Source: Actinospica robiniae DSM 44927
GTDB lineage: Bacteria; Actinomycetota; Actinomycetes; Streptomycetales; Catenulisporaceae
Reading direction: 5' to 3'
Length of the DNA stretch: 64,000 nt
Assembly: GCF_000504285.1 (NCBI RefSeq)
Contig: NZ_KI632511.1
Location: forward strand, 8,600,154 to 8,664,153
Of the stretch, positions 25,924 to 47,333 are shown piece after piece. The notes under the pieces were generated by a model. The model did no database searches. It saw only the letters and a program-made list of their open reading frames with translations, and had not been told where the DNA came from. Numbering within the stretch: the first letter of the stretch is position 1; each line of letters starts with the position of its first letter. The position numbers and the translations under genes are program-made.

Positions 25924-26661
25924 TCATCGGGCGGTTCGGGACCGGGCGGGGGTATCGAGGCGTCGGCCGAGTCCGGCAACCTCGTCCGGGTCGTGGTGGG
26001 CGGTGATCTCGAACAGCCCGGAGACGAGCGATTCGGCTGCCACCAGGCGCAGGTCCACCGGCGTGCCGCCGGTGGTCACGGCTCCGGGCAGCGGGATCAG
26101 GCGCGACTCGCTGAAGGAATCCGATGCCGGGTCTGCGACCTGTCCGCGCACCGCGACGTTCGCCCAGCGTCGCGGGGCGAGGAAGACGTACCCGTCAGCG
26201 CGGAGGCCTGGACATTGGTGTGCTGCCGTGATCGCGCAGGAGTGGCAGACCGGCGGATCCACGGTCAGGTACGGCGCCGCGGGGCCGAGGCGTTCGAGGT
26301 GGGCGTGCCAGGCAGGGGCCGCGGTCATCCACAGCGAGGCGGGCGCCGTACAGATCTGGCAAGAACCCCTTAACATCACCCTACGGTGACGTATCGGGTG
26401 GACTCGCGCGAACCGGGGCTGGCCCTCGCCCGGCGCCCAGGTCGCGCGCCGCCAGAGGATGCCGTAGCGGTCGCGGTCTTGGCTCTGCTCGTCGGGGTAG
26501 ACCAGCGCCGGTGCGCGGCCCGGGCCCGTGCGCAGGAGTGGCAGCGTGTCCGGGTCGGCCAGGACGTCCTCGGCGGACCAGGCAGTGATGTAAGGGACTG
26601 TCATTCCGTGGTAGGTGCGGGGTTGCGTGGCGGGGCGGGGTGGTCCTTCCATGCCGTTCAT
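25924..26661 (-). CDS. Hypothetical protein with two Cys pairs
   Basis: 245 residues, last gene of the array. Central GSCQICTAPASLW and VDPPVCHSCAITAAHQCPGL give two CxxC pairs plus an extra Cys and His, resembling a small zinc ribbon or treble clef. An N-terminal part (ILWRRATWAPGEGQPRFARV) and C-terminal part (PLPGAVTTGGTPVDLRLVAA) flank it. ATG 26661 is used; 26652 is also possible. No known function is recognised. The gene is 106 bp downstream of the next upstream one. Confidence 0.6.
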   Translation of the reverse strand: MNGMEGPPRPATQPRTYHGMTVPYITAWSAEDVLADPDTLPLLRTGPGRAPALVYPDEQSQDRDRYGILWRRATWAPGEGQPRFARVHPIRHRRVMLRGSCQICTAPASLWMTAAPAWHAHLERLGPAAPYLTVDPPVCHSCAITAAHQCPGLRADGYVFLAPRRWANVAVRGQVADPASDSFSESRLIPLPGAVTTGGTPVDLRLVAAESLVSGLFEITAHHDPDEVAGLGRRLDTPARSRTAR

Positions 26662-26767
26662 CGGGGACCGCCGCGGCTGACGCGGTCGGCGGGCTCGGTG
26701 TGAGGGCGGGTGGGCGGGTGTGGGTGCGGGTTCATGGGCGGCTCGTTTCGGTGTCGGTGTGTGCGGG

Positions 26768-27742
26768 TCACGGCGTTTCTGTGTTGCTGCGGGCGAGCAG
26801 TCGGGCGGCCAGGGCGACGGTGGGGCGCAGGAATTCGATCCAGCCGTCGGTGAGGTTTAGCCAGATGCCGGCCACGTGGAGTTCGCCGTCGGGTTCGACG
26901 AGGTGGAGTACTGCTGCTGCCGGGCTGGTGGCGCCGGGGGCGGCGCCGCGGCCGTAGGTGAGGATGAGCGAGCCGGGCGCGCATGCGGTCTCCTCCGTGA
27001 TGGGCAGGGCGTCGAACTCGCTGCACCACGCGGCGCCGACGGTGGTGATCAGGATGCGGTCGCGGTCGGCTGGGTGGGGCCGGGTCTGCAGGGTGCGGGC
27101 GTCGATCTGGCCGTCGGGGCGCGGGCGGATGATGCCGGGCGTGCCGGGTGTGATCAGGACGGTGGGCCCGTGCGGTGTGGTCATCGGAGGGCTTTCTGAG
27201 GCTGCGTAAGGCGGGCCGGGACGGCAAGAGCACGGAGCGGGATAGACGGGGCGGTGCGCGGTGGCTGGGCGCGGGTCATGGTCGAGTTCGTTTCGGTGCG
27301 CGGCCTGCCTGATGGCGTGGGCGATGTGCCCTTCCCTCGTGTGGATGCCCGCGCGCACGGCGCGGGCGGATAGCGGCAGTGCCACGGCGAGTAGCGGCCT
27401 GTGCCCTGTTCGCGCGATGGCCAGGCCCCACAGGCTCCCGGTGACCGCCTCGATCTCGGCGTAGGGGATCACGTGGGTGCGCAGCACGTTGGTGACGACC
27501 AGTGCGTCGCGGTTCAAGGCGATCCGTGCGCGCCCGAGGTATCCCGCGCCGAGGGCATCGAGCCCGGCGGCCAGGGCGGTTTCCACGCCGAGCGTCGCGG
27601 TGAGCCGTATCCCGCTGGCGAGCAGCGCGTAGACGTGCAGGAGCGCGATGCTCGATGCACACATGGCGGTGATCGCGGCGGCGCATGCCCAGAACGTCGG
27701 CCACCACAGCCGTGTGAGCTCAGGCTCCCGTGATCGTGACAT
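26768..27742 (-). CDS. Two-helix membrane protein fused to an array domain
   Basis: 324 residues in one continuous frame. The N-terminal 150 residues have two hydrophobic helices (LWWPTFWACAAAITAMCASS, then a second) and a beta-rich segment RDALVVTNVLRTHVIPYAEI resembling bacterial PH-like membrane domains. After a Pro/Arg-rich stretch (27275-27185) an internal ATG at 27184 begins a second unit, MTTPHGPTVLITPGTPGIIR, which looks like an independent array protein (137 residues). The two were probably separate genes that lost the intervening stop; both readings remain possible. RBS for the first start is weak (GCAGAG). Confidence 0.6.
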   Translation of the reverse strand: MSRSREPELTRLWWPTFWACAAAITAMCASSIALLHVYALLASGIRLTATLGVETALAAGLDALGAGYLGRARIALNRDALVVTNVLRTHVIPYAEIEAVTGSLWGLAIARTGHRPLLAVALPLSARAVRAGIHTREGHIAHAIRQAAHRNELDHDPRPATAHRPVYPAPCSCRPGPPYAASESPPMTTPHGPTVLITPGTPGIIRPRPDGQIDARTLQTRPHPADRDRILITTVGAAWCSEFDALPITEETACAPGSLILTYGRGAAPGATSPAAAVLHLVEPDGELHVAGIWLNLTDGWIEFLRPTVALAARLLARSNTETP

Positions 27743-27831
27743 CGAATCTTGTTCTCTGCTTTCCGTAAGGGTGCGGGGTGAAGGTGGCTGACGTGCTCGG
27801 CGTTGACCGGTCTTGCCGGGGACGGGCAGGG

Positions 27832-28506
27832 TTATGCGGCGCGGTCGGGGTCGAGTCCCGCAGGGTCGGTCAGGGCGTCGAGGAACGCGGTGATCGCCTC
27901 GCCGGGCACGTGGGCGGTGAAGATCGCCTCCCATTCCCGCCGGTGGACTCCGTCGGGGAAGCTGGCGCGGTAGTGCGGGCCGGTGGCCAGGAACTGGCCC
28001 GGGATCTCGGGCGGGGCGGCGCTGTAGACGAGGTGGACCTGCCCGTGGGTGCCGGTGTAGGTCGCACTGCGCACCGCGCGCGTCCAGCCGCGCGCCTCGG
28101 CCGCGGTGAACACCGCCTGCGCCCCGTCGTAGGCGGCACCGGCGAGGTAGCCGGGGTGCGCGCCGCGGATGCCCGCGGGATCGGTCAGCGCGCGGAGGAA
28201 CGCGGCGATCGCCTCGGCGGGCACGTCCTCGCCGAAGTGCGCTGCCCACCCCCGCTCGCCGCCCGGTTCGGGCCGGTACTCGGCGACCCACAGCCGGTCG
28301 GCGTCGCGGGAGTACCGGTCGGTCTCCGGTCCGAACTCCACGTGGCAGCGCCCGTCGGGGGACCGGTAGGTGAGGTTTCCCGCCTCGTCCTCGGACCTGT
28401 CCCACCCGGCGGCCCGCGCCGCCTCGAGGGCCGGCGTGGGCATTCCGCCGCCCGCCGCGTACGGCGGGGCGAGCACGGGTGCGGGCGGGGTGAACGCAGG
28501 GGTCAT
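27832..28506 (-). CDS. DUF317-type protein with two tandem domains
   Basis: 224 residues. Two copies of a roughly 90-residue unit: GWDRSEDEAGNLTYRSPDG ... AAHFGEDVPAEAIAAFLRAL and GWTRAVRSATYTGTHGQVHL ... AIFTAHVPGEAITAFLDAL. This tandem W-strand-helix pattern is that of the streptomycete DUF317 family, whose function is unknown and which is common on mobile elements. ATG 28506 follows GGAGG by six bases; a Pro-rich upstream extension to 28584 is unlikely. Confidence 0.75.
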   Translation of the reverse strand: MTPAFTPPAPVLAPPYAAGGGMPTPALEAARAAGWDRSEDEAGNLTYRSPDGRCHVEFGPETDRYSRDADRLWVAEYRPEPGGERGWAAHFGEDVPAEAIAAFLRALTDPAGIRGAHPGYLAGAAYDGAQAVFTAAEARGWTRAVRSATYTGTHGQVHLVYSAAPPEIPGQFLATGPHYRASFPDGVHRREWEAIFTAHVPGEAITAFLDALTDPAGLDPDRAA

Positions 28507-28718
28507 CGATGCCTCCGGGGCAGGATGGTCGGTGGGATCCGGCGGCGCGACCGCGCCGCCGGATCGATATCCAGACACAGACATTCGTGGCCGTCAAGCC
28601 GTGTGGCGCCCGCTCGATCGAGCGCCTTCCGTGGACCGGGCGCATCCGGCGAGCCCGCTCGCAGACGCGGCAGAACTGACCTGGGGCGCCCCGTCCTCGC
28701 CGTACTTAATCGATATAG

Positions 28719-29317: not shown

Positions 29318-29343
29318 CGTGGTCTCCGGTGGCCGGTGCGGGG

Positions 29344-31657: not shown

Positions 31658-32260
31658 TCATGCGGGGTCTGCGTCGTCGGTCAGGGCGAGCGCGGCGATC
31701 ACGGCGCCCGGGGCGCTCGCGTCCGTGTGGGCGTGGGCGCGCTCGCCGCCGCTGGTGGCCACGTCGGCGCGGGAGATGATCCACGGGCCGCGCTGCAGGC
31801 GGCCGTCATGGCGCCGGTATTGGGCTGAGGCCCAGCGCACCGTGTCGGGGTCGTCGAAGATCAGGGCACGTGTGCCGTATTCGGTGCCCAGGACCGGCCC
31901 TTGCAGCCAGCCCGCCGCGCGCAGGCACGCGATCGGCCCGGTGCCCGAGGGCCCGGCAACCGCCGCGCGGCAGGTCGCGTACAGGATGACAACGGGCATG
32001 TCGGTGGCTTCAACGTGCCAGAGCGCGGCGCGCGGGTCGCTCCCATCGAGCCGCACGATGCTCGTGCTCGCCTTCTCTTCGCGCCAGATCGCGGTCAGAA
32101 GGATCTGCCGGCCGGGGCTTGCCAGCAGGCGGAGACTGACGCCCGTGAGCATCCTGAGGACCTCGCTCCCGCCGAGCTCGAGGTCCATCTCCTCCCATCC
32201 CTCGGCGGTCAGCAGGCCGGTGAGCGTGGCGAGTTCGTGAGCGTGGTCGCGGGGTATCAC
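31658..32260 (-). CDS. Array family A protein
   Basis: 200 residues, one of four paralogues (also 33524-34111, 40479-41030, 41062-41661). Shared features are an N-terminal helix ending LLTAEGW, a beta-rich middle with LRLLASPGRQILLTAIWREE, WHVEATDMPVVILYA, a second unit starting LRAAGW, RGPWIISRADV and a C-terminal APGAVIAALALT. It looks like two fused DUF317-like halves. Cellular role unknown; probably cytoplasmic with no signal peptide. Confidence 0.65.
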   Translation of the reverse strand: MIPRDHAHELATLTGLLTAEGWEEMDLELGGSEVLRMLTGVSLRLLASPGRQILLTAIWREEKASTSIVRLDGSDPRAALWHVEATDMPVVILYATCRAAVAGPSGTGPIACLRAAGWLQGPVLGTEYGTRALIFDDPDTVRWASAQYRRHDGRLQRGPWIISRADVATSGGERAHAHTDASAPGAVIAALALTDDADPA

Positions 32261-33523: not shown

Positions 33524-34111
33524 TCAGGGGGTGGTGGCGAGGGCGGCGATCACCGCGCCGGGGGTGGTAGGGCTGGTGTGGGCGATGGCGCGGGTGCGGC
33601 CGGTGGTGGTCACATCCGCGCGCACGATCAGCCAGGGACCGTGCGCGGCGCCTTCGGGTCCGGGCAGGTAGGTCGCGGCGGCGGTGCGCGCGGCTCGGGG
33701 GTCGTACAGGATGACCGGGGGCAGTGTGCGCGTGCCGGTCGCTCGTTGCCGCCGGGTCCATCCGGCCTCGCGCAGCAGCTTGAGGGGCCCGGGGCTCTCG
33801 CCGGGTTCGGTGGCCGCCTCGGCCGCGGCGGCGAGGATCGAGACCGGGAGGTTGTCGGCCTGGGCGCGCCAGAGCGGGATGGGCGGGGTGTGCGGGTCGA
33901 GGCCCTGGATCTCGGTGCAGGCGTGCTCGGCGCGCCAGTTCGCGCTCAGCAGCACCCGCCGTCCGGGGCTGAGCATCAGCCGCAGACCGATCCCGGTCAG
34001 GTGCAGTGCGAAGTCGGATCCGTCCAGGCCGGTCTCGATCACCTCCCAGCCGCGGGCGGTGAGGTGGTCGGTCAGGTCCTCGAGTTCGGCGGCGTAGTCG
34101 CGGGGCATCAT
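33524..34111 (-). CDS. Array family A protein (second copy)
   Basis: 195 residues and the closest paralogue of 31658-32260: MMPRDYAAELEDLTDHLTAR (against MIPRDHAHELATLTGLL), GLRLMLSPGRRVLLSANWRA, LLREAGWTRRQ, HGPWLIVRADVTTTG and TTPGAVIAALATTP. The starts are both preceded by GAAGGAG-like sequences. Function unknown. Confidence 0.65.
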   Translation of the reverse strand: MMPRDYAAELEDLTDHLTARGWEVIETGLDGSDFALHLTGIGLRLMLSPGRRVLLSANWRAEHACTEIQGLDPHTPPIPLWRAQADNLPVSILAAAAEAATEPGESPGPLKLLREAGWTRRQRATGTRTLPPVILYDPRAARTAAATYLPGPEGAAHGPWLIVRADVTTTGRTRAIAHTSPTTPGAVIAALATTP

Positions 34112-34694: not shown

Positions 34695-35792
34695 TCACAG
34701 GAGGGTGGCGGCGTCGCGGGCGTCGTGGTGGCCGGGCAGGGCGAGGGCGACGAACACCTCGGTGGAGAACCACGCGTCGATCGCGTCGTCGTCGGGGCTC
34801 TCGGCCACGTCCTCGCACCGCTCGCGGATGTGGTCGGCCAGGGCGCGGCGGAAGGTGGGGCCGGTCAGGTGCGCGGCCTCGGGCGCGTCCGGGGCGTGTT
34901 CGGGCCAGAACAGCAGCGTCCACCGCCCGGATCCGGCTGCTGGGCGGCGGCCGGTGTCGGGTACGGGGGTGAACATGGCGGGGTGGGAGAGGCGCAGCAG
35001 GGCGCCGGTGGCGGCGGCTTCCTCTCCGGTCAGATCGTTCGGGGTGCGCAGGCTCACGGCCCGCCCTCCGGGAAGCGGCACCGCCAGGTGTTCGGTCTCA
35101 GCGGTCGATGTCGCGGCCGGGTGCGGGCGCGGGGCGTGTGCGGGTGTGGTCGGGCGGGTCGGGGCGGCGGGTTCGGTTTCGTCCGTGGGCGCGTCGGCGG
35201 GTTCGTCGATGGGCGGGGTGGTGTAGGCGGTGATCGCGTGCTGCAGGCGGGCGAGGTATGCCTTGACGGTGGTTTGCTTCACCTCGGGGTTGAGGTCGGT
35301 GAAGCGGCGCGCGACCTTCTCGAGGTCGAGCGTGGAGACGTCCTGGTCGGCGAGGTCCGGCAGGTCGCGCAGTACCCTTCTGACGGCGTAGATGTCGTTG
35401 GCGGTGGTGCGGGCGTGCCCCTGGCCGCGCTCACTCGCGTGCTTGAGGAAGACGGGCAGGTCCGCGACGGTGCCGTACGTGTGGACCGGCGGGGCCAGGC
35501 TTGCGCGCAGGCCGTAGATGGCTGCGGCGGCCGAGCGCTCGTAGGTGCGGAGAGTGGCCGGTTCGAGGCCGGGGTCGGCGTCGGCCAGCGCTTTCGACAG
35601 CGCGCCGATTTCGAGAGCGTCGAGGCGGGTGGTGGGGTCGATCCGGTCCGGGGTGAACAGGGAGCGGCACGCCAGGCGCAGCCGTTCGAGGCTGGCGGGT
35701 GCGATGTGCGGGAAGTTGGCCGGGTTGGCGAGGAACGCGGACAGGTCGATCAGGCGCAGGGGCGGGCGGGTTTCGGGTGATGGAGTGGACAT
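34695..35792 (-). CDS. Integrase-core-binding-like protein without catalytic domain (family D)
   Basis: 365 residues. The N-terminal 170 residues look like SAM-like core-binding domains of tyrosine recombinases: SERGQGHARTTANDIYAVRR, LADQDVSTLDLEKVARRF, QTTVKAYLARLQHAITAY. There is no R..HxRxxH..Y catalytic domain behind; instead a Pro/Thr-rich linker and a second domain (LAVPLPGGRAVSLRTPNDLT, GSGRWTLLFWPEHAPDAPE). The core-like part is paralogous to 38316-38864. It may bind DNA without recombining it; function is otherwise unknown. Confidence 0.65.
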   Translation of the reverse strand: MSTPSPETRPPLRLIDLSAFLANPANFPHIAPASLERLRLACRSLFTPDRIDPTTRLDALEIGALSKALADADPGLEPATLRTYERSAAAAIYGLRASLAPPVHTYGTVADLPVFLKHASERGQGHARTTANDIYAVRRVLRDLPDLADQDVSTLDLEKVARRFTDLNPEVKQTTVKAYLARLQHAITAYTTPPIDEPADAPTDETEPAAPTRPTTPAHAPRPHPAATSTAETEHLAVPLPGGRAVSLRTPNDLTGEEAAATGALLRLSHPAMFTPVPDTGRRPAAGSGRWTLLFWPEHAPDAPEAAHLTGPTFRRALADHIRERCEDVAESPDDDAIDAWFSTEVFVALALPGHHDARDAATLL

Positions 35793-35845: not shown

Positions 35846-36808
35846 TCAGAGCGCGGGGTGCGTGGCGGGGTTGAGCAGGCTCGCGGCTTGGCGCAGCAGT
35901 TGGATCTGTTCGCCGCGTTCGAGGCGGTGCAGGTGGCCGGGGAGTTCGGAGGTGTGCAGGCCGGCGGCGCGGGCGAGCGCGGTTTCGGGGCCGTGCTCGC
36001 GCGGGATGCTCAGGAACCTGCTGTTGCCGGCGAGCAGGTGCAGCACGAGGTCGTGGTGCGCGGGGATCGCGCGCAGCCGGTCGGCGGTCTCGGTGAGGAT
36101 CTCGGCGACCTTCGCGCGGGCGATGTCGGCCGGGGTGCGTGCGCGCACCGCAGCGACGGCGCTCTCGACGCTGACCGGGTCGATCTCATTGCCCCAGGGC
36201 AACTCGACGATCGCGGGGGTGAACCGGCCGGAATCCGGGTGCGCGCCGTCGCGGACCTCGATCAGGAGGCCGTCGCGGTACATCAGGTAGATCAGGTCGA
36301 TGCCCTCGGGCACCGAGCCGCGGGTGATCAGCGCGGGGTGGCCGGGTCCGGCGCTGGTGCCCGGCGGGAGCACGCTTGCTGCGGAGGCGTTGCCGTGCAG
36401 GTGCGCGGTCTCCGCGCGGGCATGGGCGGCGAGCGCGGCCTCGATGTACGCGGGGCTCGGGGTGCCGTCGTCCTGGTGGCAGTAGCAGGCGCCGACCGGG
36501 GCCGGGGCGCGGCGCGGGCGTATCTCACGGTCCTTTGACGTCGCCGCGCCCAGGTGCCGCCATCCGCCGGGGTGGGCGTAGATGAGTTCCGCCGCCGCCC
36601 GGCGCAGCCCCTCGCGTGAGCGGTAGCGCACACCGAACAGCTCCAACAGGAGCCGCGCCGTGGCCACAGGCCCCGGAGCGTGGTCCAGGTAGCGGCCTCT
36701 AAACGCGCCACCTCCGGCCGGTATGGCGATCACGGCGCCGCTCGGTTCCTGCTGCGGTTCGCTTTCGCCCGCTGTGGCGGGCGGCGTGTGGATTTCGCTG
36801 CTGGTCAA
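35846..36808 (-). CDS. Array family C protein (long form)
   Basis: 320 residues. Family C markers: FRGRYLDHAPGPVATARLLL, AHPGGWRHLGAATSKDREIR, VGACYCHQDDGTPSP (CxCH motif), DLIYLMYRDGLLIEVRDGA and a helical C-terminus (AAGLHTSELPGHLHRLERGE). Paralogues are 36962-37906 and the short 39462-39962. The C-x-C-H could bind metal. A TTG at 36808 is preferred, seven bases after AGGAG; ATG 36838 lacks such a site. The C-terminal helices resemble a small HTH (LARAAGLHTSEL). Confidence 0.65.
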   Translation of the reverse strand: MTSSEIHTPPATAGESEPQQEPSGAVIAIPAGGGAFRGRYLDHAPGPVATARLLLELFGVRYRSREGLRRAAAELIYAHPGGWRHLGAATSKDREIRPRRAPAPVGACYCHQDDGTPSPAYIEAALAAHARAETAHLHGNASAASVLPPGTSAGPGHPALITRGSVPEGIDLIYLMYRDGLLIEVRDGAHPDSGRFTPAIVELPWGNEIDPVSVESAVAAVRARTPADIARAKVAEILTETADRLRAIPAHHDLVLHLLAGNSRFLSIPREHGPETALARAAGLHTSELPGHLHRLERGEQIQLLRQAASLLNPATHPAL

Positions 36809-36961
36809 CGGTTTCTCCTGGGTGGAAGGGCAGCGCACGGTGTTCGCGCCGGGAGGGGCGGGGGTCCTTCGATGGGTTCTTGAGCGCGCCGCTGAACGTG
36901 AATCACGGAGCGATCGACCGGGGGCGTTCGGCCGGGCCGCCGCCGTGCGGGGTTGCCGGTG

Positions 36962-37906
36962 TCACACGGCGCGGTACGACTCGCCTGGGATCAGCTGTGC
37001 GGCGACTTCGAACAGGTCGGCCTGTGCCTCCAGGCCCGCGCTGGCAAGATGGTCGGGCAGTTCGTCCGGGCCGACTCCGGCGGCGCGGGCGAGCGCGCCG
37101 AGCGCGGCGGCGGTCTCTCGTCCGGTGCGGGCGTGCCAATGCAGTGTCTCGAGCGCGTACTGCCCGCTCACCATCTTCTTCAGGTGCCGTGCCGTGGTAG
37201 TGAGGCTGCGTCCGGCGTCGTCGCGGGCGAGGTCTTCGGGAACGCGGGCGCGGATGGCCGCGGCGGCGGCGTCGATCTGCTCCCAGTTCGCTTCCTCGCT
37301 CCAGCCGACCTCGCCGGCCTTGAGGAATCGCGCGTCGCGGGCGCCGTCGCGCACGCCGACCGTGATCCCCTCGGCGTGCAGGAGGAAGACGTAGACGACG
37401 CGGTCGGGAAGTCCCTTGTGGGGGTTGATCAGTTGAGGGGCGCAGGCGGTCGGATCGGAGCTGCGCTTCACCGCCTTCTCGAGCGCCTCGATGTCGTAGG
37501 GACGAGTCTGCTCGAGGCGGCGGAGCATGCCGAGCAACTGGTTGAGGAACTCGGGCCGCACATAGCCGTCGGGGGTGTGGCAGTAGCAGGATCCTGCGTC
37601 CGCGGGTCTGCGCCGGGCTCTGATCTGCGGGTCCTTGGCGGTGGCGGTCCCGAGGTGCTCCCATCCGCAGGGGTGCGCGTCGATCAGTTCGCTGACTGCG
37701 ACTTTCATGCGGGTGCGGGCGCTCGATCGGGCGGTGACGGTCTCGCGGATCAGCCGGGCGGTGTCCGAGGGCCCGGGGGCGTGGTGCAGGTAGCGTCCGC
37801 TCCAACCCTCGTTGTATCGGCCGGGGCGGGCGATGACGCCTGCGGGCGGGTCCGGCGCTCCGGATTGCGGTGGCGGGCAGGCGGATGCTTCGGTTCTGGT
37901 GTTCAT
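36962..37906 (-). CDS. Array family C protein (second copy)
   Basis: 314 residues, same organisation as 35846-36808: WSGRYLHHAPGPSDTARLIR, AHPCGWEHLGTATAKDPQIR, AGSCYCHTPDGYVRP, YVFLLHAEGITVGVRDGARD, and ARAAGVGPDELPDHLASAGL at the end. ATG 37906 follows AGGAC. The conservation of GRYLxHAPGP and C-x-C-H across copies marks the likely functional site; function unknown. Confidence 0.65.
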   Translation of the reverse strand: MNTRTEASACPPPQSGAPDPPAGVIARPGRYNEGWSGRYLHHAPGPSDTARLIRETVTARSSARTRMKVAVSELIDAHPCGWEHLGTATAKDPQIRARRRPADAGSCYCHTPDGYVRPEFLNQLLGMLRRLEQTRPYDIEALEKAVKRSSDPTACAPQLINPHKGLPDRVVYVFLLHAEGITVGVRDGARDARFLKAGEVGWSEEANWEQIDAAAAAIRARVPEDLARDDAGRSLTTTARHLKKMVSGQYALETLHWHARTGRETAAALGALARAAGVGPDELPDHLASAGLEAQADLFEVAAQLIPGESYRAV

Positions 37907-37920: not shown

Positions 37921-38319
37921 TCAGGGGCGGGTAATGAGGTAGGCGAGGATCGCGCGGGCAGCGCGGTGGCGGTTCGCGCGCTCGGTCCCCGTGTGTTCGA
38001 GCGCGACGTACGGGTGTGCGGCGATCGCCGGTGCGGCCGTGCGCAGCCAGGTGCCGGGGGCGAGCCCGGTGTAGCGGGCGACGGGGGCGAAGGTGTCGGA
38101 GATCTGCTCGTGGTCGGCGAACAGCGCGAGGTCGACCTCGCCGCCGGCGCGGGCGGCGAGCGCGAGCCACAGCGCGCAGCCCGGCCCGGTGCTCTGCGTT
38201 CCGCCGTGGTGCCAGGTCCCGGTCAGGTACGGCGCATCGGTCTCCGAGGTGTGCAGGGTGTGGATGCGAAACGCCCAGCCGAGCCCGGGAATCGGGCAGG
38301 CGCCGTCCAGGCGGGTCAC
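37921..38319 (-). CDS. Hypothetical array protein
   Basis: 132 residues. Beta-rich (CPIPGLGWAFRIHTLHTSE, GTWHHGGTQSTGPGCALWLA) with a terminal helix RHRAARAILAYLITRP. The GTG start overlaps the upstream stop (GTGA), so it is translationally coupled to the family D gene. No family is recognised. Confidence 0.6.
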   Translation of the reverse strand: MTRLDGACPIPGLGWAFRIHTLHTSETDAPYLTGTWHHGGTQSTGPGCALWLALAARAGGEVDLALFADHEQISDTFAPVARYTGLAPGTWLRTAAPAIAAHPYVALEHTGTERANRHRAARAILAYLITRP

Positions 38320-38864
38320 CGCGTACTCCCGCGCGGCGAGCTCGGTGTGGTCTCGGCGAGGTACCGGGTGATCGCGCGGCGGAAGCCGGAGGTGTACTGG
38401 GTGATCGAGGCCGGGGCCAGCTCGCCGTGATGGGCCCGGCGGTAGCGGGAGATCGCGTCCTCGACATCCAGGGTCTTCAGGTCGGTGTCGTAGCCGTCAG
38501 GCAGTTCGGCCAGCACCTTGCGGGCTCCGTGCAGGTACGCGGTCGCAGAAGGCCGTTTCACCCTCCCGGTGCGCCGTGCCCAGGCCCAGTACTCCAGCAA
38601 GTCGCGGCCGCACGGGTGCTCGGGGGCGGGTTGCTCGGCCCACATCGCTCCTGATCGCGCCGCCTGGTAGGTCACGGTCGTCAGGAATCCGCGGTCCTGC
38701 GGGCGGATGCGGGCATCGCTTGTGTGCGGGGTCGGGACCCACACCCGCGCCCCGTGCGGGGCGAGGCTGAGGATGGTTCCGCGCCAGCGAGCCCCGGTGC
38801 CCGGCTCGATCAGCCCGACCTCCAGGCCCTCGCTCATCTCCTGCCGCGCCAGCCCCGTGCTCAC
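38316..38864 (-). CDS. Family D protein (core-binding-like, short)
   Basis: 182 residues. The N-terminal part is beta-rich (RWRGTILSLAPHGARVWVPT). The C-terminal half matches 34695-35792: RPSATAYLHGARKVLAELPD, LKTLDVEDAISRYRRAH, ASITQYTSGFRRAITRYL, the pattern of a recombinase core-binding domain. It has no catalytic residues. Start GTG 38864 overlaps the upstream stop. Confidence 0.6.
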   Translation of the reverse strand: MSTGLARQEMSEGLEVGLIEPGTGARWRGTILSLAPHGARVWVPTPHTSDARIRPQDRGFLTTVTYQAARSGAMWAEQPAPEHPCGRDLLEYWAWARRTGRVKRPSATAYLHGARKVLAELPDGYDTDLKTLDVEDAISRYRRAHHGELAPASITQYTSGFRRAITRYLAETTPSSPRGSTR

Positions 38865-39461: not shown

Positions 39462-39962
39462 TCAGTTGGCCGGGTCGGTGTCCCAGGCGTGGGCTTCACG
39501 CAGTTCGCGGGCGCGCTCGGCCATCAGGTCGAACCGGATCCGGCCGGTCTCGCGGGTGTAGGAGGCGCGCCCGAGCTTGAGCCAGTCGCCGTTCACTCGC
39601 ACCTCGACGCGCAGCCCGGCGGGGGTGAGCAGGTAGGCGTAGCGGGCGGTGCGGGGCTGGCCCGGGGTGAGCATCTGCGCGTCCAGGCCCGTGACGGCGA
39701 CCGGCTCGGGGGTATGGCAGCGGCACGCGCCAAGGCGCTCGTGTGTCGGGGCGATCTCCTCCCAACACACGTGCTCGTCGATCAGGGCGGCGGCCAGGGC
39801 GGTGATGCCGTCGGTGCCGCGTGCGGCGTGGGCGTCGCGGGCGAGGCGGTGCAGGAGCGGGCCGAGGTCGACCGGGGCGCCGTAGGCCAGGACGTAGCGT
39901 CCCTCCCAGGATCCTGCGCGGGGACGGGCGATCACGGCGGTGATCGCGGCCGGGTTGTTCAT
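39462..39962 (-). CDS. Array family C protein (short form)
   Basis: 166 residues. It retains the family C N-terminal domain only: WEGRYVLAYGAPVDLGPLLH, DEHVCWEEIAPTHERLGACR, CHTPEPVAVTG (C-x-C-H), YLLTPAGLRVEVRVNGDW, but lacks the helical C-terminal region of the two long copies, thereby defining the core domain. Function unknown. Confidence 0.6.
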   Translation of the reverse strand: MNNPAAITAVIARPRAGSWEGRYVLAYGAPVDLGPLLHRLARDAHAARGTDGITALAAALIDEHVCWEEIAPTHERLGACRCHTPEPVAVTGLDAQMLTPGQPRTARYAYLLTPAGLRVEVRVNGDWLKLGRASYTRETGRIRFDLMAERARELREAHAWDTDPAN

Positions 39963-40031: not shown

Positions 40032-40457
40032 TCAGGGTTCTTGTGTCGAGTTGTTCGGCAGGCTCGCCACGAGGTCGGCCAGGGTGGTGCCGTCGGGCGT
40101 CTTGAACACCGGCCAGCCCTTGGTGGGGTATCCGGCGATGTGGGTGGCGGCGCGGTTCGGGCCGGTGTGCACGGTTCCGTCGGCGTCGGCCAGGAATCCG
40201 GCGGCGGTCACGGTGAACGTGTAGGTCTCCTGGCTGTTGCGCCGGTACCAGGTGATCTGGTCGCCCGGCTTGATCAGTCCGGCGCGGATGAGCGGGCCGA
40301 GCTGGCCGGGCAGGTCCTCGGCGTCCGGCGTGCTCGCCTGCGCGACCGGGGGTAGGGCGAGCAGGGCCCGGATGACGTCGTTGGGGGTGTCGCGCCAGGC
40401 GCGGGCACGGTCGGCGAGGGCTTCGAAGACCTCGGCGTCGATGAAGATGCGGGGCAT
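40032..40457 (-). CDS. RHH - RAMA domain protein
   Basis: 141 residues. The N-terminus IFIDAEVFEALADRARAWRD is a SeqA/RHH-like DNA-binding strand-helix unit. From about residue 52 a RAMA-like domain (LIRAGLIKPGDQITW, FLADADGTVHTGPNRAATHI, GYPTKGWPVFKTPDGTTLAD) follows. RAMA domains are known beside restriction and modification enzymes and have been proposed to sense modified DNA; combining RHH and RAMA suggests a DNA-binding reader. No methylase is present in the window. Confidence 0.75.
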   Translation of the reverse strand: MPRIFIDAEVFEALADRARAWRDTPNDVIRALLALPPVAQASTPDAEDLPGQLGPLIRAGLIKPGDQITWYRRNSQETYTFTVTAAGFLADADGTVHTGPNRAATHIAGYPTKGWPVFKTPDGTTLADLVASLPNNSTQEP

Positions 40458-40478: not shown

Positions 40479-41030
40479 TCAGTTAGTCAGGGCGATGGCC
40501 GCGATGACGGCGGGCGGCGCATCAAGGCCGGTGTGTATGTGCGGGCCGAGCAGGCCTCTGCGGTAGATGGACCAGCCGCTCTCGCTGCGCGGTCCACGCT
40601 GGGGCGCGAGGTACACGGCGCGGCGGACCGTGTCGGGGCCGAGCCAGCGCTGGTAGGCGACGTGGTCGCCCTCGTACTCCTCCGCCTCGAGTACCCAGTG
40701 GCCGTTGGTGAGTCGGCCGGCGAGGCTGCGGGCGTCATCGGGTTCGGTGCTCGCGTGGGCGGCGGCGAGGATGACCGTGGCGGGGAGGTCGATCGCTTCG
40801 ATGCGCCATGCCGGTCCTGCCTCGTACGGGGTGCGCGTGGCGAGTTCGAGGGTCAGGCCGCCCCCGGCGAAGTCCATGAGATAGATCTCGAGTTGTTGCT
40901 CCGGGTCGTGCAGGGTCCGCGCGCTCACGCCGAACGCAGGCGGTATCGGCATGCGGGTCTGGTCGCTCTCCAGACTCCAACCGGCGGAAGTCAGTTCGCG
41001 TACGAGTGCGTCGAGGTCGTCCGTAGGCAT
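40479..41030 (-). CDS. Array family A protein (third copy)
   Basis: 183 residues: LDALVRELTSAGWSLESDQT, LTLELATRTPYEAGPAWRIE, SESGWSIYRRGLLGPHIH and the family end APPAVIAAIALTN. It is more divergent than the 31658/33524 pair. Function unknown; neighbouring copy 41062-41661 may derive from a local duplication. Confidence 0.6.
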   Translation of the reverse strand: MPTDDLDALVRELTSAGWSLESDQTRMPIPPAFGVSARTLHDPEQQLEIYLMDFAGGGLTLELATRTPYEAGPAWRIEAIDLPATVILAAAHASTEPDDARSLAGRLTNGHWVLEAEEYEGDHVAYQRWLGPDTVRRAVYLAPQRGPRSESGWSIYRRGLLGPHIHTGLDAPPAVIAAIALTN

Positions 41031-41061
41031 GTCAGGGCTCTCTAGTTCGGGTCGGGGTCGG

Positions 41062-41661
41062 TCAGGTCAGGGCGAGGGCGGCGATGACGCCGGGCGGGGT
41101 GGTCAGCGCCGCGCTGATGGCCGGGCCCGAGCGCATGACGTCGCGGTAGATCAGCCAGCCCTGGTCGGGGCCCGCCTGCATGCGGATCACGCCGCGCGAG
41201 GCGTCCGGGCCCCACCAGGTGGCCACCAGTTCGGGCCGGTCCGCGCCGGGCGGGTCGGGGGCCCTGCGCCAACCGGCGGCCTCCAGGCACGCCGGGACGT
41301 CGGGCCCCGGGTGTTTGAGGGACTCGGCGGCGACGATCGCTGCGGCGGGGATCAGCCCGGGGCAGCTCGCCCACCAGTCCGCCTTCCAGGCGGGGGCGAT
41401 CATGGTGCGGGTCGGCCAGTGCGAGCCGTACTCGGCGCGCGCGGTCAGCAGGCCGGCTTGATCGGTCACCTCGAAGGCGTGCTGTCCGGCGGTGACCGGC
41501 CGTGCCATACGCCGCCTGTCGGCGAACCCTGCGGCGATCAGGTCTCTGATCCATTCCTGGAGTTCGAGGGCGGCGGTGAAGGCGGCAGGGCCCGTCATCA
41601 CGGCGGCGATCGCGCGGTGCGAGGTGGTGGGCGGGAAGTCGGCGGGGTCGAACGAGGTCAT
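41062..41661 (-). CDS. Array family A protein (fourth copy)
   Basis: 199 residues: LQEWIRDLIAAGFADRRRMA, CLEAAGWRRAPDPPGADR, VIRMQAGPDQGWLIYRDVMR and the family end TTPPGVIAALALT. The N-terminal half is the most changed of the four copies. It follows the VWA gene by 58 bp. Confidence 0.6.
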   Translation of the reverse strand: MTSFDPADFPPTTSHRAIAAVMTGPAAFTAALELQEWIRDLIAAGFADRRRMARPVTAGQHAFEVTDQAGLLTARAEYGSHWPTRTMIAPAWKADWWASCPGLIPAAAIVAAESLKHPGPDVPACLEAAGWRRAPDPPGADRPELVATWWGPDASRGVIRMQAGPDQGWLIYRDVMRSGPAISAALTTPPGVIAALALT

Positions 41662-41718: not shown

Positions 41719-43560
41719 TCAGCGGGCTGCGGCGGCCAGGGCGCGGGTGGCGGCCTTGGCGATCGCCTCGGGCGCTTCGGCCGGGTCGGAAAGGTGCAGG
41801 CAGGTCACCCCGTTCGGGACCTTCGCGGTGCCGGTCGGATCCAGCCACAGCACCGCGCAGCCACTCGCGATCAGGTGGGCGATGCGCTCGCGCGCGCCCT
41901 CGATCTCTGCGGGTTCGAACGCGGCGTCGGAGGCGATCACGAGCAGGCGGGCCGCGCCGGGGGCGGCAAGGGCAAGGGCGCCGGTGAGCGCGTCGATCGA
42001 TTCGCTGATCCGGTGCCGTCCCGGGTGCGCGTCGAACTCGGTGACCTGCGTCGGGGGCCTGCCCGGGCGGGTGATCACGGTGATCTGGCTCGCGAAGGCG
42101 ATCGTGGCCGAGGCGTTGTCCACGCCGGCCTGGTAGGTCGCGTTCGCCATGATCCAGGCGGCGGAGGCGACCGGTTTCGCAAAGGCCTGCATCGATCCGG
42201 AGACGTCCGCGAGGATCCCGACGCGCACCGGCGGATTGGGCAGCGACTTGCGGGCGGTGTGCACCCACGGTTCGGCGCTCGGCATCGCACCGGCCGCGCG
42301 CTGGGCCTCGCGGGCGAGTGCCGCGCGCATCCCGAGGCGTCCGGGCGGCGCGATCGAGGTACTGCGGATCTCTTGGCGTTCGCGGGTTCCGGCCTGGCGC
42401 AGGGCGCGCCCGAGGCGGGCTGCGGCGGCCTTCTCCTTCACGCTCGGCCTGCGAACCCCGGTGATCGGCGTGCGGATCGATGTGTCGTTCGGGTCCGGGG
42501 CGGGGGCGCCGAACACGCGCTGCCCGGCCTTGCTGGCCCGCTGCGCGCGGATCCTGGCCTGCGCCTTCGGGCTCGGGGCCGGAATCGCGGCCTGCTTCGC
42601 TATCTTCCGCGCAGCGCGGCGCACCGCCGCCCCGATCCGGGTACTGGTCGGCGCCCCGCCTGCCCCGGGCGCGCCGGGGCCCTGCTGCTGACCCGCGTTC
42701 TGGCCGTCGGGAGCGGGCTGCTCGGCCTCGACGTCCAGGGTCTCGCACCACAGCTTGCCCAGGTGCAGCATCGTGGCGGCGTCCTCGTCCGCCACAGAGC
42801 GGGCGGCGGTCCAGATCATCTGCAGCCGGTTGAACTTTTCGTGGCCGATCACGCGGCGCACCTCGTACTCGACCGGGACGGCGAGGTGTTTCGGCACGAT
42901 CCCCGCGTCAGCGCGGGCGGCGATCAGCCCCGCCGCCATACCCGCCGACCAGGCGGTGTCCGGCAGCGTCGTCGGGAAGCTGGGCAGCACCAGCTCCGCC
43001 ACGCAGGCCCCGAGCCACCGGGTATCGCCGGGGCGCGATTCAAGAAGGCGGGCCTCGGCGCGCGACTCCTCGAGCATGTCGGCCGCCTCCGCCGCCGCAC
43101 TGCCCTGCTTCTCGCGCGGGGCGTTCCACCTCGAGTGCCGGGCATGGGCGGCCTCGTGGGTCAAAGCTCCCCACGCCGCCGCGTAGCGCTCGCGGTCGCC
43201 GAGGATGTCAGGGTCGATACTCGCCGGGTCGATCCGGCCGAACGCCTTCGCCTCGATCTCGATCTTCGCCTGGTCCGGGTAGAACACCGCCTTCGCCCCT
43301 GCGCGGGTGCCGCGCGGGCGCACCTCGACCATCAGGTCGGCGCGGGCGGCGATCGCACCGACCTGGTAGGACAGTGCCGCGCCGACCCGCAGCCACTCGG
43401 CCGCGCGCTTCTTGTTCGTCTTCCTGACCGGCCTCGCCGGGGCGGCGCCGCCCGCTCCTGCCTTCGCGGCGACCGCCTGGGCCATTGCGGAGGCCAGCTG
43501 TCCTCGCATCGCCGTTAAGGCGGGGTCGGGGGCGCGGTGCACGTGGGATCCGACACTCAT
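41719..43560 (-). CDS. VWA protein with metallopeptidase-like motif (MoxR partner)
   Basis: 613 residues. An N-terminal domain carries WGALTHEAAHARHSRWN (HEAAH at 135-139), the HExxH of putative metallopeptidases that accompany VWA-like domains (DUF2201-type). A Gly/Pro/Gln-rich hinge (about 290-320) and an Arg/Lys-rich helix region follow. Then a C-terminal VWA domain with the MIDAS motif DVSGSM (about 450), GVDNASATIAFAS and LLVIASDAAFE. It lies 80 bp downstream of the AAA ATPase on the same strand. The pair resembles MoxR-VWA chaperone systems, in which the ATPase acts with a VWA partner; protease activity is inference. Confidence 0.8.
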   Translation of the reverse strand: MSVGSHVHRAPDPALTAMRGQLASAMAQAVAAKAGAGGAAPARPVRKTNKKRAAEWLRVGAALSYQVGAIAARADLMVEVRPRGTRAGAKAVFYPDQAKIEIEAKAFGRIDPASIDPDILGDRERYAAAWGALTHEAAHARHSRWNAPREKQGSAAAEAADMLEESRAEARLLESRPGDTRWLGACVAELVLPSFPTTLPDTAWSAGMAAGLIAARADAGIVPKHLAVPVEYEVRRVIGHEKFNRLQMIWTAARSVADEDAATMLHLGKLWCETLDVEAEQPAPDGQNAGQQQGPGAPGAGGAPTSTRIGAAVRRAARKIAKQAAIPAPSPKAQARIRAQRASKAGQRVFGAPAPDPNDTSIRTPITGVRRPSVKEKAAAARLGRALRQAGTRERQEIRSTSIAPPGRLGMRAALAREAQRAAGAMPSAEPWVHTARKSLPNPPVRVGILADVSGSMQAFAKPVASAAWIMANATYQAGVDNASATIAFASQITVITRPGRPPTQVTEFDAHPGRHRISESIDALTGALALAAPGAARLLVIASDAAFEPAEIEGARERIAHLIASGCAVLWLDPTGTAKVPNGVTCLHLSDPAEAPEAIAKAATRALAAAAR

Positions 43561-43640: not shown

Positions 43641-45200
43641 TTAGTTCTTGGCCTGCTTGCCGAGGGCGAGGGGGCTCGCGGCCTTGCCGAGGATCGTGCG
43701 GACCACGGTGGCGACCTCGTCGCGGTCCTCAGCGGGGGCGAGGGCGACCAGGTTGCCGAACGCGGCGTCCTCGCCGAGGACCTCGTGGATGGCCTTGAAG
43801 GCGAGCAGTTCGCGCAGTTGCGGCGACCAGGCGAGGTCGCCTGCGGCCTGCCGGGTAGCGAGGTTGCGGGCGATCTGGACCGCGCGCCCGTCGACTCCGA
43901 GGCTGACCGCGAGCTCCCAGTCGGTGCCGACCTGGATGCGGGTGGCAAACCGGGAGGCGAGGGCCTCGGTCAGGATCGCGCCGTGCACACCCGGGTTGTG
44001 ACCGGCGATCACGTAGAAGCCTTCGTCAGCGGTGACGGTCTCGCCCCGGTGCTCTTTCACCACGATCTCGCGCCGCCCGTCCATCGCCGGATACATCGCG
44101 GCGAGCACCTTCGGGGAGATCAGGGTGGCGTCGTCGAGGAACAGCGGGCGCCCCTCGGTCATCGCGGTGATCAGCGGACCGTAAACGAACTCGTATCCGC
44201 CGTCGGCGCGCATCGTGTAGGAGCCGACCAGGTCCGCGACCTGGGTATCCCCGTCCCCCGCGACCAGGATCAGGTCCGGGAACGCCGCCTCGACCAGACT
44301 CGTCTTGCCGGTGCCGGGCGGGCCTTCGAGCAGGACCGGGATACCGGCGTCGCGCAGCTTGTGCAGCGCCTGGACATCGGTGAGGTCCTCGCCGAGCTTG
44401 CGCGGGTAGTAGAGCTGCCCGTTGCGGCGGCGGATCGCGGTGTCCTGTTTTTCTGTCCGTGCCGGTGCGGCAGGTGTCGCAGGAGCCGGGTTCACGGGGC
44501 TCGTGTTGGCCGGAGCCGGTGCGGGTGGGGCGGGTGCTCGTGGCGGGCGCGGCGGCGCGGCCGGGCGGGGTGCGGTGGGTGCGGGCCGGTACGGGGTGGG
44601 GTGGCGGGCCTTGTAGGTGCGCGGGCTGCCGTTGGTCTTTGTGATCTTCCTGTCGGCGGCCAGGGTCTCCAGGGCGTTGCCGACCGCGCCTCCGGAGTGC
44701 CCGAGCCGGTTGGCGACCTCCGTGACCGTGAATTCGGTGCCCTCCTCGTCGGCGAGGAAGTGGGCGACCTTGTCCTGCAACTCCCCGGGCCTGCTGCGCC
44801 CGGGCGCGCCGGCCTGGCCCGTGGGCGCACTACTGCCTTGTACCGCGGGGGCGGCGGGCGAGGCGGGTGCGGTACTCGCTGGTGCGGGTGGCAGTGCGGG
44901 CGTGGGCTGTGGGTCCGGTGCCGGGCCGGTATCTTCGTCTTCGTCCTCGGGTTCGGCTTCTTCGTTGTCGTCGTCGGGTTCGGGTTGTTCTTGGCCGTCG
45001 TGCTCGGCGGGATCCTCCTGCGCGCCGGTCTCCTCGTCGGCCGGGTAGTTGGGGGCGTCGTCGGGCGCGTTGTCCGCCTCGGCGCCGGGCATTTCGGCCA
45101 AGCCGTGGGCCCGGAGAATGGCGAGGGCGCGGGCGACTTCGGGGGGAAGCGGGGCGGTGTCGGGGGCATGGGGCGCGGGCGGGGCGTCGAGCAGGGTCAT
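43641..45200 (-). CDS. MoxR-type AAA ATPase with internal winged helix
   Basis: 519 residues. An acidic N-terminal region (residues 40-90) is followed by a winged helix (VAHFLADEEGTEFTVTEVAN, about 140-190), Pro/Ala-rich linkers and an AAA domain: Walker A LLEGPPGTGKTS (about 290), Walker B PLFLDDATL (about 351), YVIAGHNPGVHGAILTEAL (sensor region) and SRFATRIQVGTDW. The winged helix resembles that in 21803-22705. It would remodel a protein target using ATP with the VWA gene downstream. ATG 45200 is chosen; the longer upstream frame belongs to neighbours. Confidence 0.82.
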   Translation of the reverse strand: MTLLDAPPAPHAPDTAPLPPEVARALAILRAHGLAEMPGAEADNAPDDAPNYPADEETGAQEDPAEHDGQEQPEPDDDNEEAEPEDEDEDTGPAPDPQPTPALPPAPASTAPASPAAPAVQGSSAPTGQAGAPGRSRPGELQDKVAHFLADEEGTEFTVTEVANRLGHSGGAVGNALETLAADRKITKTNGSPRTYKARHPTPYRPAPTAPRPAAPPRPPRAPAPPAPAPANTSPVNPAPATPAAPARTEKQDTAIRRRNGQLYYPRKLGEDLTDVQALHKLRDAGIPVLLEGPPGTGKTSLVEAAFPDLILVAGDGDTQVADLVGSYTMRADGGYEFVYGPLITAMTEGRPLFLDDATLISPKVLAAMYPAMDGRREIVVKEHRGETVTADEGFYVIAGHNPGVHGAILTEALASRFATRIQVGTDWELAVSLGVDGRAVQIARNLATRQAAGDLAWSPQLRELLAFKAIHEVLGEDAAFGNLVALAPAEDRDEVATVVRTILGKAASPLALGKQAKN

Positions 45201-45259: not shown

Positions 45260-45652
45260 TCACGCGGCGGGATGCCAGCCGTACTCGCGCAGGACCGCTC
45301 GGGCTTGTTCGGCGGCGTACTGCAGGAGTTTCAGAGCGTCGGCGGGATTGCGTCCGGCGTAGTACCGCTCGGCCTCGCGCAGGAACCCTCGGGCGTGCAG
45401 GGCTTTCCAGCCGGGGGATTCGGGCGGGTAGTTGGCCTTGGTCGGTGCGGTGCGGGACAGGTCGATCGCGGTGATGTCGCGTTGCAGGGCGGCGTACGCG
45501 TGCTCGCGGCGTTCCCGGTAGCCCGTGGTCAGGGCGATCGCGTCGCCGACCTCGTCGGCGACCCGGTCGTGCCAATCGAGGTAGAGCCGGTCGGATTGGG
45601 CGTCGGTGAGGGTTGCGATCTCGCGGGTGGCGGGTGGGGTGGCGGCGGTCAC
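45260..45652 (-). CDS. Hypothetical helical protein
   Basis: 130 residues, mostly helical: DRLYLDWHDRVADEVGDAIA, LTTGYRERREHAYAALQRDI, FLREAERYYAGRNPADALKL and AAEQARAVLREYGWHPAA. Start GTG 45652. Order AAA - this gene suggests it is part of the same transcription unit. No family is recognised. Confidence 0.6.
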   Translation of the reverse strand: MTAATPPATREIATLTDAQSDRLYLDWHDRVADEVGDAIALTTGYRERREHAYAALQRDITAIDLSRTAPTKANYPPESPGWKALHARGFLREAERYYAGRNPADALKLLQYAAEQARAVLREYGWHPAA

Positions 45653-45666
45653 GGTGCGGGGCTTTC

Positions 45667-45918: not shown

Positions 45919-46316
45919 GACGTTGGCCCGTCTGCGTTCGCGTGGGCGATCAGGAGGTCGCGCACGGTGGGCAGGGTGGCGGCGTCCTCGGGCTCGAGGT
46001 TCGGGTCCTCGGGCTCTACTCCGTAGGTCCGGCTCCATTCCACGTCTCCGCACGGGCCGGTGGTCAGCCGCCCGGCGCTCATGAGCAGGCTGTTGTCCTT
46101 GGTGACCGGGCGGGTGTCGTCGAGGATGGCCAGCCAGGTGACGTGGCCGCCTTCGAAGACCACGGGTTCTCCGGTGCGCGGGAGCCGGGCGGTGGGGATG
46201 TAGGGCCCGAACTCCTGGAGAAACGTGGCGGCTTGGGTGGGGCTCGGGGCGAGGCAGGCGGGCAGGGGCTGGAGGGCGAGGGCCTCCTCGTGTGCGTGGG
46301 CGATGGGTACGGTCAT
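45915..46316 (-). CDS. Hypothetical array protein
   Basis: 133 residues: N-terminal Ala/Pro-rich part, then beta-rich TGEPVVFEGGHVTWLAILDD and an acidic C-terminus (GVEPEDPNLEPEDAATL). No family is recognised. Spacing is 27 bp to its upstream neighbour. Confidence 0.55.
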   Translation of the reverse strand: MTVPIAHAHEEALALQPLPACLAPSPTQAATFLQEFGPYIPTARLPRTGEPVVFEGGHVTWLAILDDTRPVTKDNSLLMSAGRLTTGPCGDVEWSRTYGVEPEDPNLEPEDAATLPTVRDLLIAHANADGPTS

Positions 46317-46343
46317 GGCGCTGCTCCTGAGGGTGGTCGGTGG

Positions 46344-46547
46344 TCAGGCGGGGATGCCGTCGGTTTCGTGGGCGTAGCGGGTCATGGCGCGGGCGTGGTC
46401 GGGCAGGGTCGCAGGGTCCGTACAGGTGCGGGCGAAGGTGCGCAGGTACCAGGCGGCATAGGCGCGGGCGCGGCGGGTCTCGGGCTTGCCGGGCGAGTAG
46501 GCGCTGGCGGCGGCGAAGGCTACGGCGGTGAGGATCTCGGTGGGCAT
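46344..46547 (-). CDS. Small helical hypothetical protein
   Basis: 67 residues: MPTEILTAVAFAAASAYSPG, RARAYAAWYLRTFARTC, LPDHARAMTRYAHETDGIPA. ATG 46547 follows GAAAGGGG by eight bases. It may be all helical. No family is recognised. Confidence 0.55.
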   Translation of the reverse strand: MPTEILTAVAFAAASAYSPGKPETRRARAYAAWYLRTFARTCTDPATLPDHARAMTRYAHETDGIPA

Positions 46548-46584
46548 GGCGTGGCCCCTTTCTCGGGCGGGGGGCGGGAAGGGA

Positions 46585-46878
46585 TCAGGCCTCGGTGAAC
46601 AGGCGGACCCGGTTGGCATCGCCCAGGTTGAACCGCATCGGGGTGTCGTGTCCGATCGGGCGCATGATCACGCTGGTGACTCGGTAGCCGGTGCGGAACT
46701 GGACCGTACGGGCGGCGTGGTAGACCATCCCGCGCACCGTGACCTGTTCTCCGAGTTTGCCGAGGCCTTTGGCCGCGTTCTCCTTCGTGACGACCGTGGT
46801 GATTTCCACGAACTCGCCTTGGTGTTCGGGCCCGAGTTCCGCGCCGGTCATGGCCGGGCCGCGCGACAGGTCTCCCAT
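46585..46878 (-). CDS. Small beta-rich hypothetical protein
   Basis: 97 residues: GEFVEITTVVTKENAAKGLG, GEQVTVRGMVYHAARTVQF, GYRVTSVIMRPIGHDTPM, suggesting a small barrel (OB-like). ATG 46878 follows AAAGGAAC. Its leader (46911-46965) repeats the leader of the first array gene. Confidence 0.6.
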   Translation of the reverse strand: MGDLSRGPAMTGAELGPEHQGEFVEITTVVTKENAAKGLGKLGEQVTVRGMVYHAARTVQFRTGYRVTSVIMRPIGHDTPMRFNLGDANRVRLFTEA

Positions 46879-46910
46879 GTACGTGTTCCTTTCTTCTGCC
46901 GCCACCGCCG

Positions 46911-46965
46911 GTTCTGGGCGTGGCTTGCGCAGGGCTTGCGGGTGGTGGAGGTTCGGGTTCGGCGT
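46911..46965 (-). repeat. Leader repeat, copy 2
   Basis: On the plus strand this reads GTTCTGGGCGTGGCTTGCGC then AGGGCTTGCGGGTGGTGGAG and matches 47359-47420. Both copies lie 25-35 bp upstream of minus-strand start codons, so they are duplicated 5' leaders or operator sites. Confidence 0.55.
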
Positions 46966-47012
46966 GCCGCTGGTGTCCCGTTCGGGATCTTTCGTGTGGC
47001 GGGTGAGGCGGA

Positions 47013-47333
47013 TCACGCCGTTTCGAGGCAGGGGTTGGGCAGGGTGAACTCGCCGTCGCGCAGGTCGTGTTCCATGGCTTCGTAGTCATCGAGTGCGCGC
47101 CAGACGTTTCGGCGGCTGTACTGGCGTGACCATGCGCGCCGGGTGGTGCCGTCCGGGTTTTCTACAATCAGGCCGATCCAGTGGTACATGCCTGAGTTCT
47201 GGCGGTAGACCGGTCCGTAGAGGCCGATTTCGATCCGGCTGCCGTCGGGGCGGGCGGGGGTCAGGAGCTTGCGGCGCCACGGTGCGTCACGCGGTACGGG
47301 TTTGGCGGCGGCGGGCTCGCGGTAGCCGGGCAC
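47013..47333 (-). CDS. First gene of the array, hypothetical
   Basis: 106 residues: KLLTPARPDGSRIEIGLYGP, QNSGMYHWIGLIVENPDGTT, SRQYSRRNVWRALDDYEAME. Beta-rich then helical; no family recognised. GTG 47333 is preferred over 47375 because GAAAGGAA lies seven bases before it and because the upstream codons are the conserved leader repeat. All further array genes lie downstream in the same direction. Confidence 0.6.
   Translation of the reverse strand: MPGYREPAAAKPVPRDAPWRRKLLTPARPDGSRIEIGLYGPVYRQNSGMYHWIGLIVENPDGTTRRAWSRQYSRRNVWRALDDYEAMEHDLRDGEFTLPNPCLETA

Follow-up and report, generated by a model that had tools for sequence, protein, structure and literature searches.

The array and its genes

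At positions 25924-47333 of a 64,000-nucleotide window from Actinospica robiniae DSM 44927 (genome of 9.92 Mb in a single contig; window at positions 8600154-8664153) lie 31 genes that all point in one direction, on the minus strand. They are not a stand-alone system: the array forms the variable part of an actinomycete integrative conjugative element (ICE) and follows immediately on the type IV secretion system (T4SS) operon, on its downstream side; the element read here, A, is one of six related ICEs (A-F) in this chromosome. Genes were called with a codon-usage script, and the relatives used for comparison are draft genomes, some of them fragmented. The original prediction, made from the sequence of the window, described a one-direction minus-strand array of about 30 small genes, which agrees with our calls; its "many" overlaps of four bases were overstated, as such overlaps occur at 4 of the 30 junctions. 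The median intergenic gap is 44 bp, with a single gap of 654 bp. The main features, from the T4SS-proximal to the distal side, are:

47457-47693, minus strand: conserved structured non-coding element, two copies and a degenerate third towards 47335
25924-47333, minus strand: variable array of 31 co-directional genes (codon-usage gene calling; colinear copy in the same genome)
45260-45652, minus strand: g53, protein of 130 amino acids (93% amino acid identity in copy B; profile matches in elements A-F)
43641-45200, minus strand: g52, MoxR-type AAA+ ATPase with an N-terminal winged-helix domain at about residues 147-186 (Pfam AAA_5, 5e-18; MarR_2)
41719-43542, minus strand: g51, VWA co-chaperone with an N-terminal zinc-metallopeptidase motif HEAAH and the MIDAS motif DVSGS (Pfam VWA_CoxE, 9e-10)
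40479-41661, minus strand: g49 and g50, two DUF317-like proteins (family profile)
40032-40457, minus strand: g48, RAMA-domain protein (Pfam RAMA, 1.5e-10)
39462-39962, minus strand: g47, third member of the g42/g43 family (same profile family)
38316-38837, minus strand: g45, paralogue of g41 (same family)
35846-37906, minus strand: paralogues g42 and g43 (profile family of 10 members in 5 elements)
34695-35792, minus strand: g41 (family of 10 in 7 elements)
33524-34111, minus strand: g39, DUF317-like (family profile; AlphaFold2 mean pLDDT 82.6, with a repeating arrangement of helices and strands)
31658-32260, minus strand: g36, DUF317-like (family profile)
27832-28506, minus strand: g30, DUF317 protein with two SPDY domains (Pfam SPDY, 1.6e-24)
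25635-25669 and 25697-25733, no strand assigned: two perfect 13-bp inverted repeats (hairpins) on the 3' side of the array (sequence scan)
21842-22705, plus strand: stand-alone winged-helix protein past the distal array end, whose C-terminal domain matches the MoxR N-terminus (profile family)

The MoxR-type ATPase and the VWA protein form the most recognisable part of the array. The winged helix of the MoxR proteins of elements A and B is independently supported by a MarR_2 match and by the profile family, and the relatives of the ATPase in the PDB are midasin, NorQ and CbbQ. Among 22 related loci with a VWA gene (see below), a MoxR homologue occurs in 21, with the Walker motifs present and the winged helix in at least 19 of the 21 copies. 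In the VWA homologues, H129, E130 and H133 are kept in 21 of 22 and D446, S448 and S450 in all 22, so that the arrangement known from MoxR and metallopeptidase-vWA pairs, an HExxH motif N-terminal to a MIDAS-bearing vWA domain with MoxR adjacent, is present here. The VWA domain ends at about residue 578 of 607 and nothing follows it.

A Pfam scan of 30 array proteins gave matches above the cut-offs to AAA_5 (g52), VWA_CoxE (g51), RAMA (g48) and DUF317/SPDY (g30, two domains), the other match being a borderline general AAA hit in the MoxR protein; nearly all remaining proteins of this set matched no Pfam family. The content named in the original prediction (MoxR-type ATPase, VWA protein with HEAAH, RAMA and DUF317-like proteins) is thereby confirmed, as are its repeat-rich upstream DNA (three tandem repeats of about 111 bp) and its two downstream hairpins. 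Iterative profiles also recovered the four expanded paralogue families it had listed: the DUF317-like proteins (g30, g36, g39, g49 and g50, with g35 partially linked), g42/g43/g47, g41/g45 and g33/g37. For the g41/g45 family, a Phage_int_SAM_1 match in one member only (E=0.08) and a low-confidence model weakly point to a possible integrase core-binding-like helical domain. Profile searches against the PDB for three array families returned nothing useful.

DUF317 is a large actinobacterial family. The profiles unite g30, g36, g39, g49 and g50 with relatives into a set of 44-46 proteins from 14 elements, the largest family of the array; 16 of the 39 members scanned match Pfam SPDY/DUF317, and within the array PF03771 is reached directly by g30 and only via the family profile by g36, g39, g49 and g50. 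Judged by these profiles, the family is a divergent DUF317, which also stands behind T4SS operons that lack the MoxR-VWA pair. Structure models were built for proteins of the window, and the AlphaFold2 model of g39 had no significant PDB or viral structure match; the TNT immunity factor IFT came up as a weak match (probability 0.91), which was not accepted at a TM score of 0.36. Of the eight papers naming DUF317 that a full-text search retrieved, none is a functional study to judge by title and abstract.

The host element and its neighbouring genes

The T4SS operon spans 64.7-53.6 kb, upstream of the array, and the remaining landmarks of the element lie on both sides:

60114-63652, minus strand: PrgI, VirB6-like and VirB2-type pilin genes (Pfam PrgI 6e-14, T4SS_pilin 1e-19; VirB6 by position and size only)
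58213-60117, minus strand: VirB4/TraC ATPase (Pfam)
55718-58165, minus strand: T4SS coupling protein, TrwB/VirD4-like (Pfam)
54615-55670, minus strand: putative relaxase (Pfam Replic_Relax, 2e-42; called from this domain alone)
53589-54599, minus strand: NlpC/P60 protein, final gene of the T4SS operon (Pfam NLPC_P60, 8e-26)
5630-17011, plus strand: Tad/Flp-pilus-like module on the other flank of the array, ending in a LysM-like/BTAD protein (Pfam SAF, T2SSE, T2SSF, Tad, BTAD; conserved in related elements)
74034-75812 in window numbering, past the window end: serine integrase (recombinase), overlapping the 3' end of tRNA-Leu(gag)

Genes for VirB4, a coupling protein and a putative relaxase (all by Pfam), together with a site-specific integrase at an attachment site, leave hardly any doubt that the array is part of an ICE. 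The same integrase/tRNA-Leu arrangement occurs in genome G003, whose integrase is 64% identical; the tRNA 3' end was not found a second time within the 144 kb read, and the left attachment site was not located. The original prediction had proposed an "element-encoded regulatory, defence or DNA-maintenance system". The array is indeed element-encoded and the regulatory suspicion appears right; no defence effector was found (PADLOC on ten proteins), and the hallmarks of vWA-MoxR-VMAP systems are absent.

Several further genes lie in and around element A. Between T4SS and array, an AAA_16/TPR protein gene made of 96-bp tandem repeats (48945-51749) has no similar protein in B. Between the Tad module and the array (17572-24711), genes for phosphomannomutase, HIT-family and seryl-tRNA-synthetase-like proteins have no relatives in B or the other compared elements and are possibly cargo. 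A trio of recombinase-like genes at 66976-70076 (window numbering), one with Pfam Phage_integrase, is 100% identical in B and also found beside F; by this identity it is taken to be a recent mobile insertion. Two genes at -14462 to -12337 (window numbering), one transporter-like and one acetyltransferase-like, are seen again at the edges of the elements B, C and G012 as they are in A, and are cargo common to several elements.

Constant and exchanged parts of related elements

Element B is a colinear second copy at about 1.36-1.42 Mb of the same genome, its array at 1374.4-1396.2 kb. It has 19 of the 22 small genes in common with A (mean 78% amino acid identity), and the two copies share 80-87% DNA identity in the array and 71-76% in the T4SS. 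The other four related T4SS elements, C-F (5.79, 6.11, 6.49 and 6.69 Mb), have compact arrays: the T4SS is followed by 0.7-0.9 kb of non-coding DNA, then by a stand-alone winged-helix gene at the position held by MoxR in A, and then by 1-3 DUF317-like genes and a g53 relative; the next gene in C, D and E lies on the opposite strand and belongs to the same winged-helix family. Neither MoxR nor VWA is present in C-F, and two of these elements have Tad genes in the stretch read. Constant features of the region are the hairpin-forming non-coding DNA between T4SS and array, a T4SS-proximal winged-helix gene and DUF317-like genes, often with a second winged-helix gene of the same family distally on the opposite strand. 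Since the winged helix stands alone in many elements and is fused to MoxR here, a regulator of this ICE family appears, from its domain distribution, to have gained an AAA+ engine and a metallopeptidase-VWA partner.

VWA relatives were found in 13 of 60 near relatives and in 11 of 33 other genomes of the class, the latter having been picked for a close VirB4 relative, so that these frequencies cover only the genomes compared. Gene calls were compared for 22 loci with VWA. VirB4 lies within 18 kb of VWA in 14 of them, on the same strand in 12 of these 14 and typically at a distance of 8-10 kb; an NlpC/P60 gene is often found at 4-5 kb. Two further loci have VirB4 on the same contig at 52-55 kb, five lie on short contigs or contig ends, and in the Streptomyces-like genome G014 only a distant VirB4-like ATPase and an NlpC/P60 gene are nearby. 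In most comparisons with element A, 8 of 9 T4SS genes and both members of the pair are in common, while outside B the small genes number 0-10 of 22; the pair is thus tied to the conjugation machinery and not to particular small genes. The description of the array as "built around a MoxR-VWA pair" cannot be upheld in this light, all the more as the four elements C-F carry short DUF317-type arrays without it. The check suggested with that description, co-variation across syntenic arrays, went partly against it: the presence of particular small genes does not follow that of the pair; DUF317-like genes, however, are met again and again, and the presence of the pair goes with longer arrays.

Within family f1, co-directional runs behind the relaxase gene comprise 0-11 genes in 13 elements without VWA versus 11-31 in seven with it (Mann-Whitney p=4e-4, or 1.5e-3 with the pair itself removed; indicative only, the elements being related). 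For A and B, run lengths were taken from the whole array, because the automatic count halts at insertions. A close-relative search of the genome contigs found nothing. In the VirB4 relatives of G075, G241, G069, G070, G226 and G242, the alignment includes one or two in-frame TGA codons and may run past the true stop.

The non-coding DNA just upstream of the array has a conserved stretch of about 110 nt that includes a 51-nt motif. With the corresponding model, R1, a search of 60 genomes gives eight strong copies, in A (two), B, G002 (two), G003, G011 and G012, and all its other matches stay below 27 bits. T4SS and array flank the copies of A, B, G003 and G012, both G002 copies are on the VirB4 contig and the G011 copy is on a short contig. 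The motif is 82-93% identical, though the MoxR/VWA proteins of G003 and G012 share only about 50%. Its outer stem reads UGUG/CACA in one group, whereas the second group has CAACAU/AUGUUG, and pairing thus seems to be kept through two-sided changes; the sequences are few and a double-stranded inverted-repeat binding site would look alike. An Rfam search of the upstream region gave no match. The element might serve as a leader RNA or as a single-strand promoter, or belong to the origin of transfer (oriT). Other elements have unrelated hairpin-rich non-coding DNA at the same position; very strong inverted repeats (z down to about -11) were seen in the T4SS-array gap of G164, G192 and G319, whose elements belong to other families.

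A possible role in establishment and control of the element

Taken together, the best explanation, to which we give a probability of about 0.5, is that the array is an establishment or regulatory island of the ICE, in which a DNA-tethered AAA+-metalloprotease would control the element; the same even odds apply to the establishment/regulatory region as such. The MoxR-VWA pair probably helps to switch the element on or to settle it in a new host. Because constant transfer genes next to variable small genes resemble published cases in the pLS20 family and in plasmid leading regions, the array may be held down in the donor and expressed on activation of the element or on entry into a recipient, where its variable proteins would counter host defences or help the element to settle. 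From the domain logic we infer how the pair might act: the winged-helix MoxR is predicted to bind element DNA and, with the HExxH/VWA protein, would unfold or cleave a DNA-bound regulator, plausibly the sister winged-helix protein. Such a regulator-remodelling protease is a tentative proposal. More doubtful still is its boldest version, an activation switch of a widespread actinobacterial ICE family that removes or remodels the sister winged-helix repressor and so releases a fast-evolving DUF317 anti-defence island. ImmA cleaves ImmR in ICEBs1, and this switch likewise places a DNA-binding regulator and a metalloprotease on an ICE, by analogy only, as the regulator fold differs; ImmA is not known to include an AAA+ or VWA protein.

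Published systems resemble parts of the locus. The establishment genes of pLS20 are small, clustered and highly variable, in contrast to the conserved conjugation genes (PMC8708921). In the regulons of this plasmid family, such mostly uncharacterised small genes likewise adjoin a conserved conjugation operon, and the non-coding sequences ahead of them are conserved and contain both inverted and internal repeats (PMC8708921). Phylum and element type differ, however, and here we find one long array instead of several operons, no recognisable ArdC or methyltransferase, and MoxR-VWA and DUF317 in addition. Leading-region anti-defence islands with single-strand promoters share the one-direction small-gene island near a relaxase gene with hairpin-forming DNA ahead (PMC11541004), whereas here no known anti-defence gene matched and oriT was not located. 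The array would work like an establishment region and is a candidate member of that class.

The pair might instead be a chaperone that assembles and processes the conjugation machine or Tad pilus, with the small genes as unrelated accessory cargo accumulating downstream. We regard this as a possible but less probable reading. The pair does track the T4SS, usually a few kb past its last gene and on the same strand, and the pair of group 2.2 jumbo phages, which shares the two-protein logic with the metallopeptidase N-terminal to vWA, is proposed to assemble and process virions (PMC7824862); here the pair sits on an ICE and its ATPase has a winged helix, an ICE linkage that is unreported in the literature searched. 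A predicted DNA-binding domain on MoxR would be needless for an assembly chaperone, C-F do without the pair (two of them despite Tad genes), and G164 and G241 keep it without a Tad ATPase gene in the stretch read.

It is improbable that the ICE carries the array as cargo with a function in defence or conflict. MoxR-vWA pairs are the core of published vWA-MoxR-VMAP ternary systems, with MoxR preceding vWA as here (PMC7159879), and many fast-changing small genes and a RAMA domain would fit. In the layout described there (PMC7159879), a VMAP or iSTAND third component is expected; no Pfam domain of this kind was matched in the genes next to MoxR and VWA, no effector is fused C-terminal to vWA, and the constant position behind the T4SS is unlike cargo. 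PADLOC, run on ten proteins, gave just weak P-loop matches and a RAMA-domain match, and membership in a known defence system was rejected for want of a real match among these ten. About as improbable is that the array encodes DNA-binding proteins for maintenance or regulation of the ICE in the donor and not the recipient. The winged helices, the RAMA protein and the weakly suggested integrase-like helical domains would agree with this, as would the DUF317-like genes in each compact array of the same genome; against it stand the high gene turnover, unusual for core maintenance functions, and the lack of any recognised partition or replication family.

Several points weigh against an establishment or regulatory island too. 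None of the array proteins scanned belongs to a known family of anti-restriction, anti-CRISPR or SSB proteins (Pfam for 30 proteins, PHROG; PADLOC for ten proteins only), oriT was not located, so that the array is placed only as lying behind a putative relaxase gene, and strong motif copies are confined to the elements of A, B, G002, G003, G011 and G012. The array-length comparison uses related, non-independent elements and a count that stops at insertions. That the sister winged-helix protein would be cleaved or remodelled is conjecture.

DUF317 and the winged-helix MoxR now have a clear context, which is new. DUF317 holds a constant place behind the ICE conjugation operon, with or without MoxR-VWA, which makes its role testable, and the winged-helix MoxR fusion with its stand-alone sister offers a concrete hypothesis for ICE control. 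The array would, moreover, be worth searching for new anti-defence proteins of Streptomyces and its relatives.

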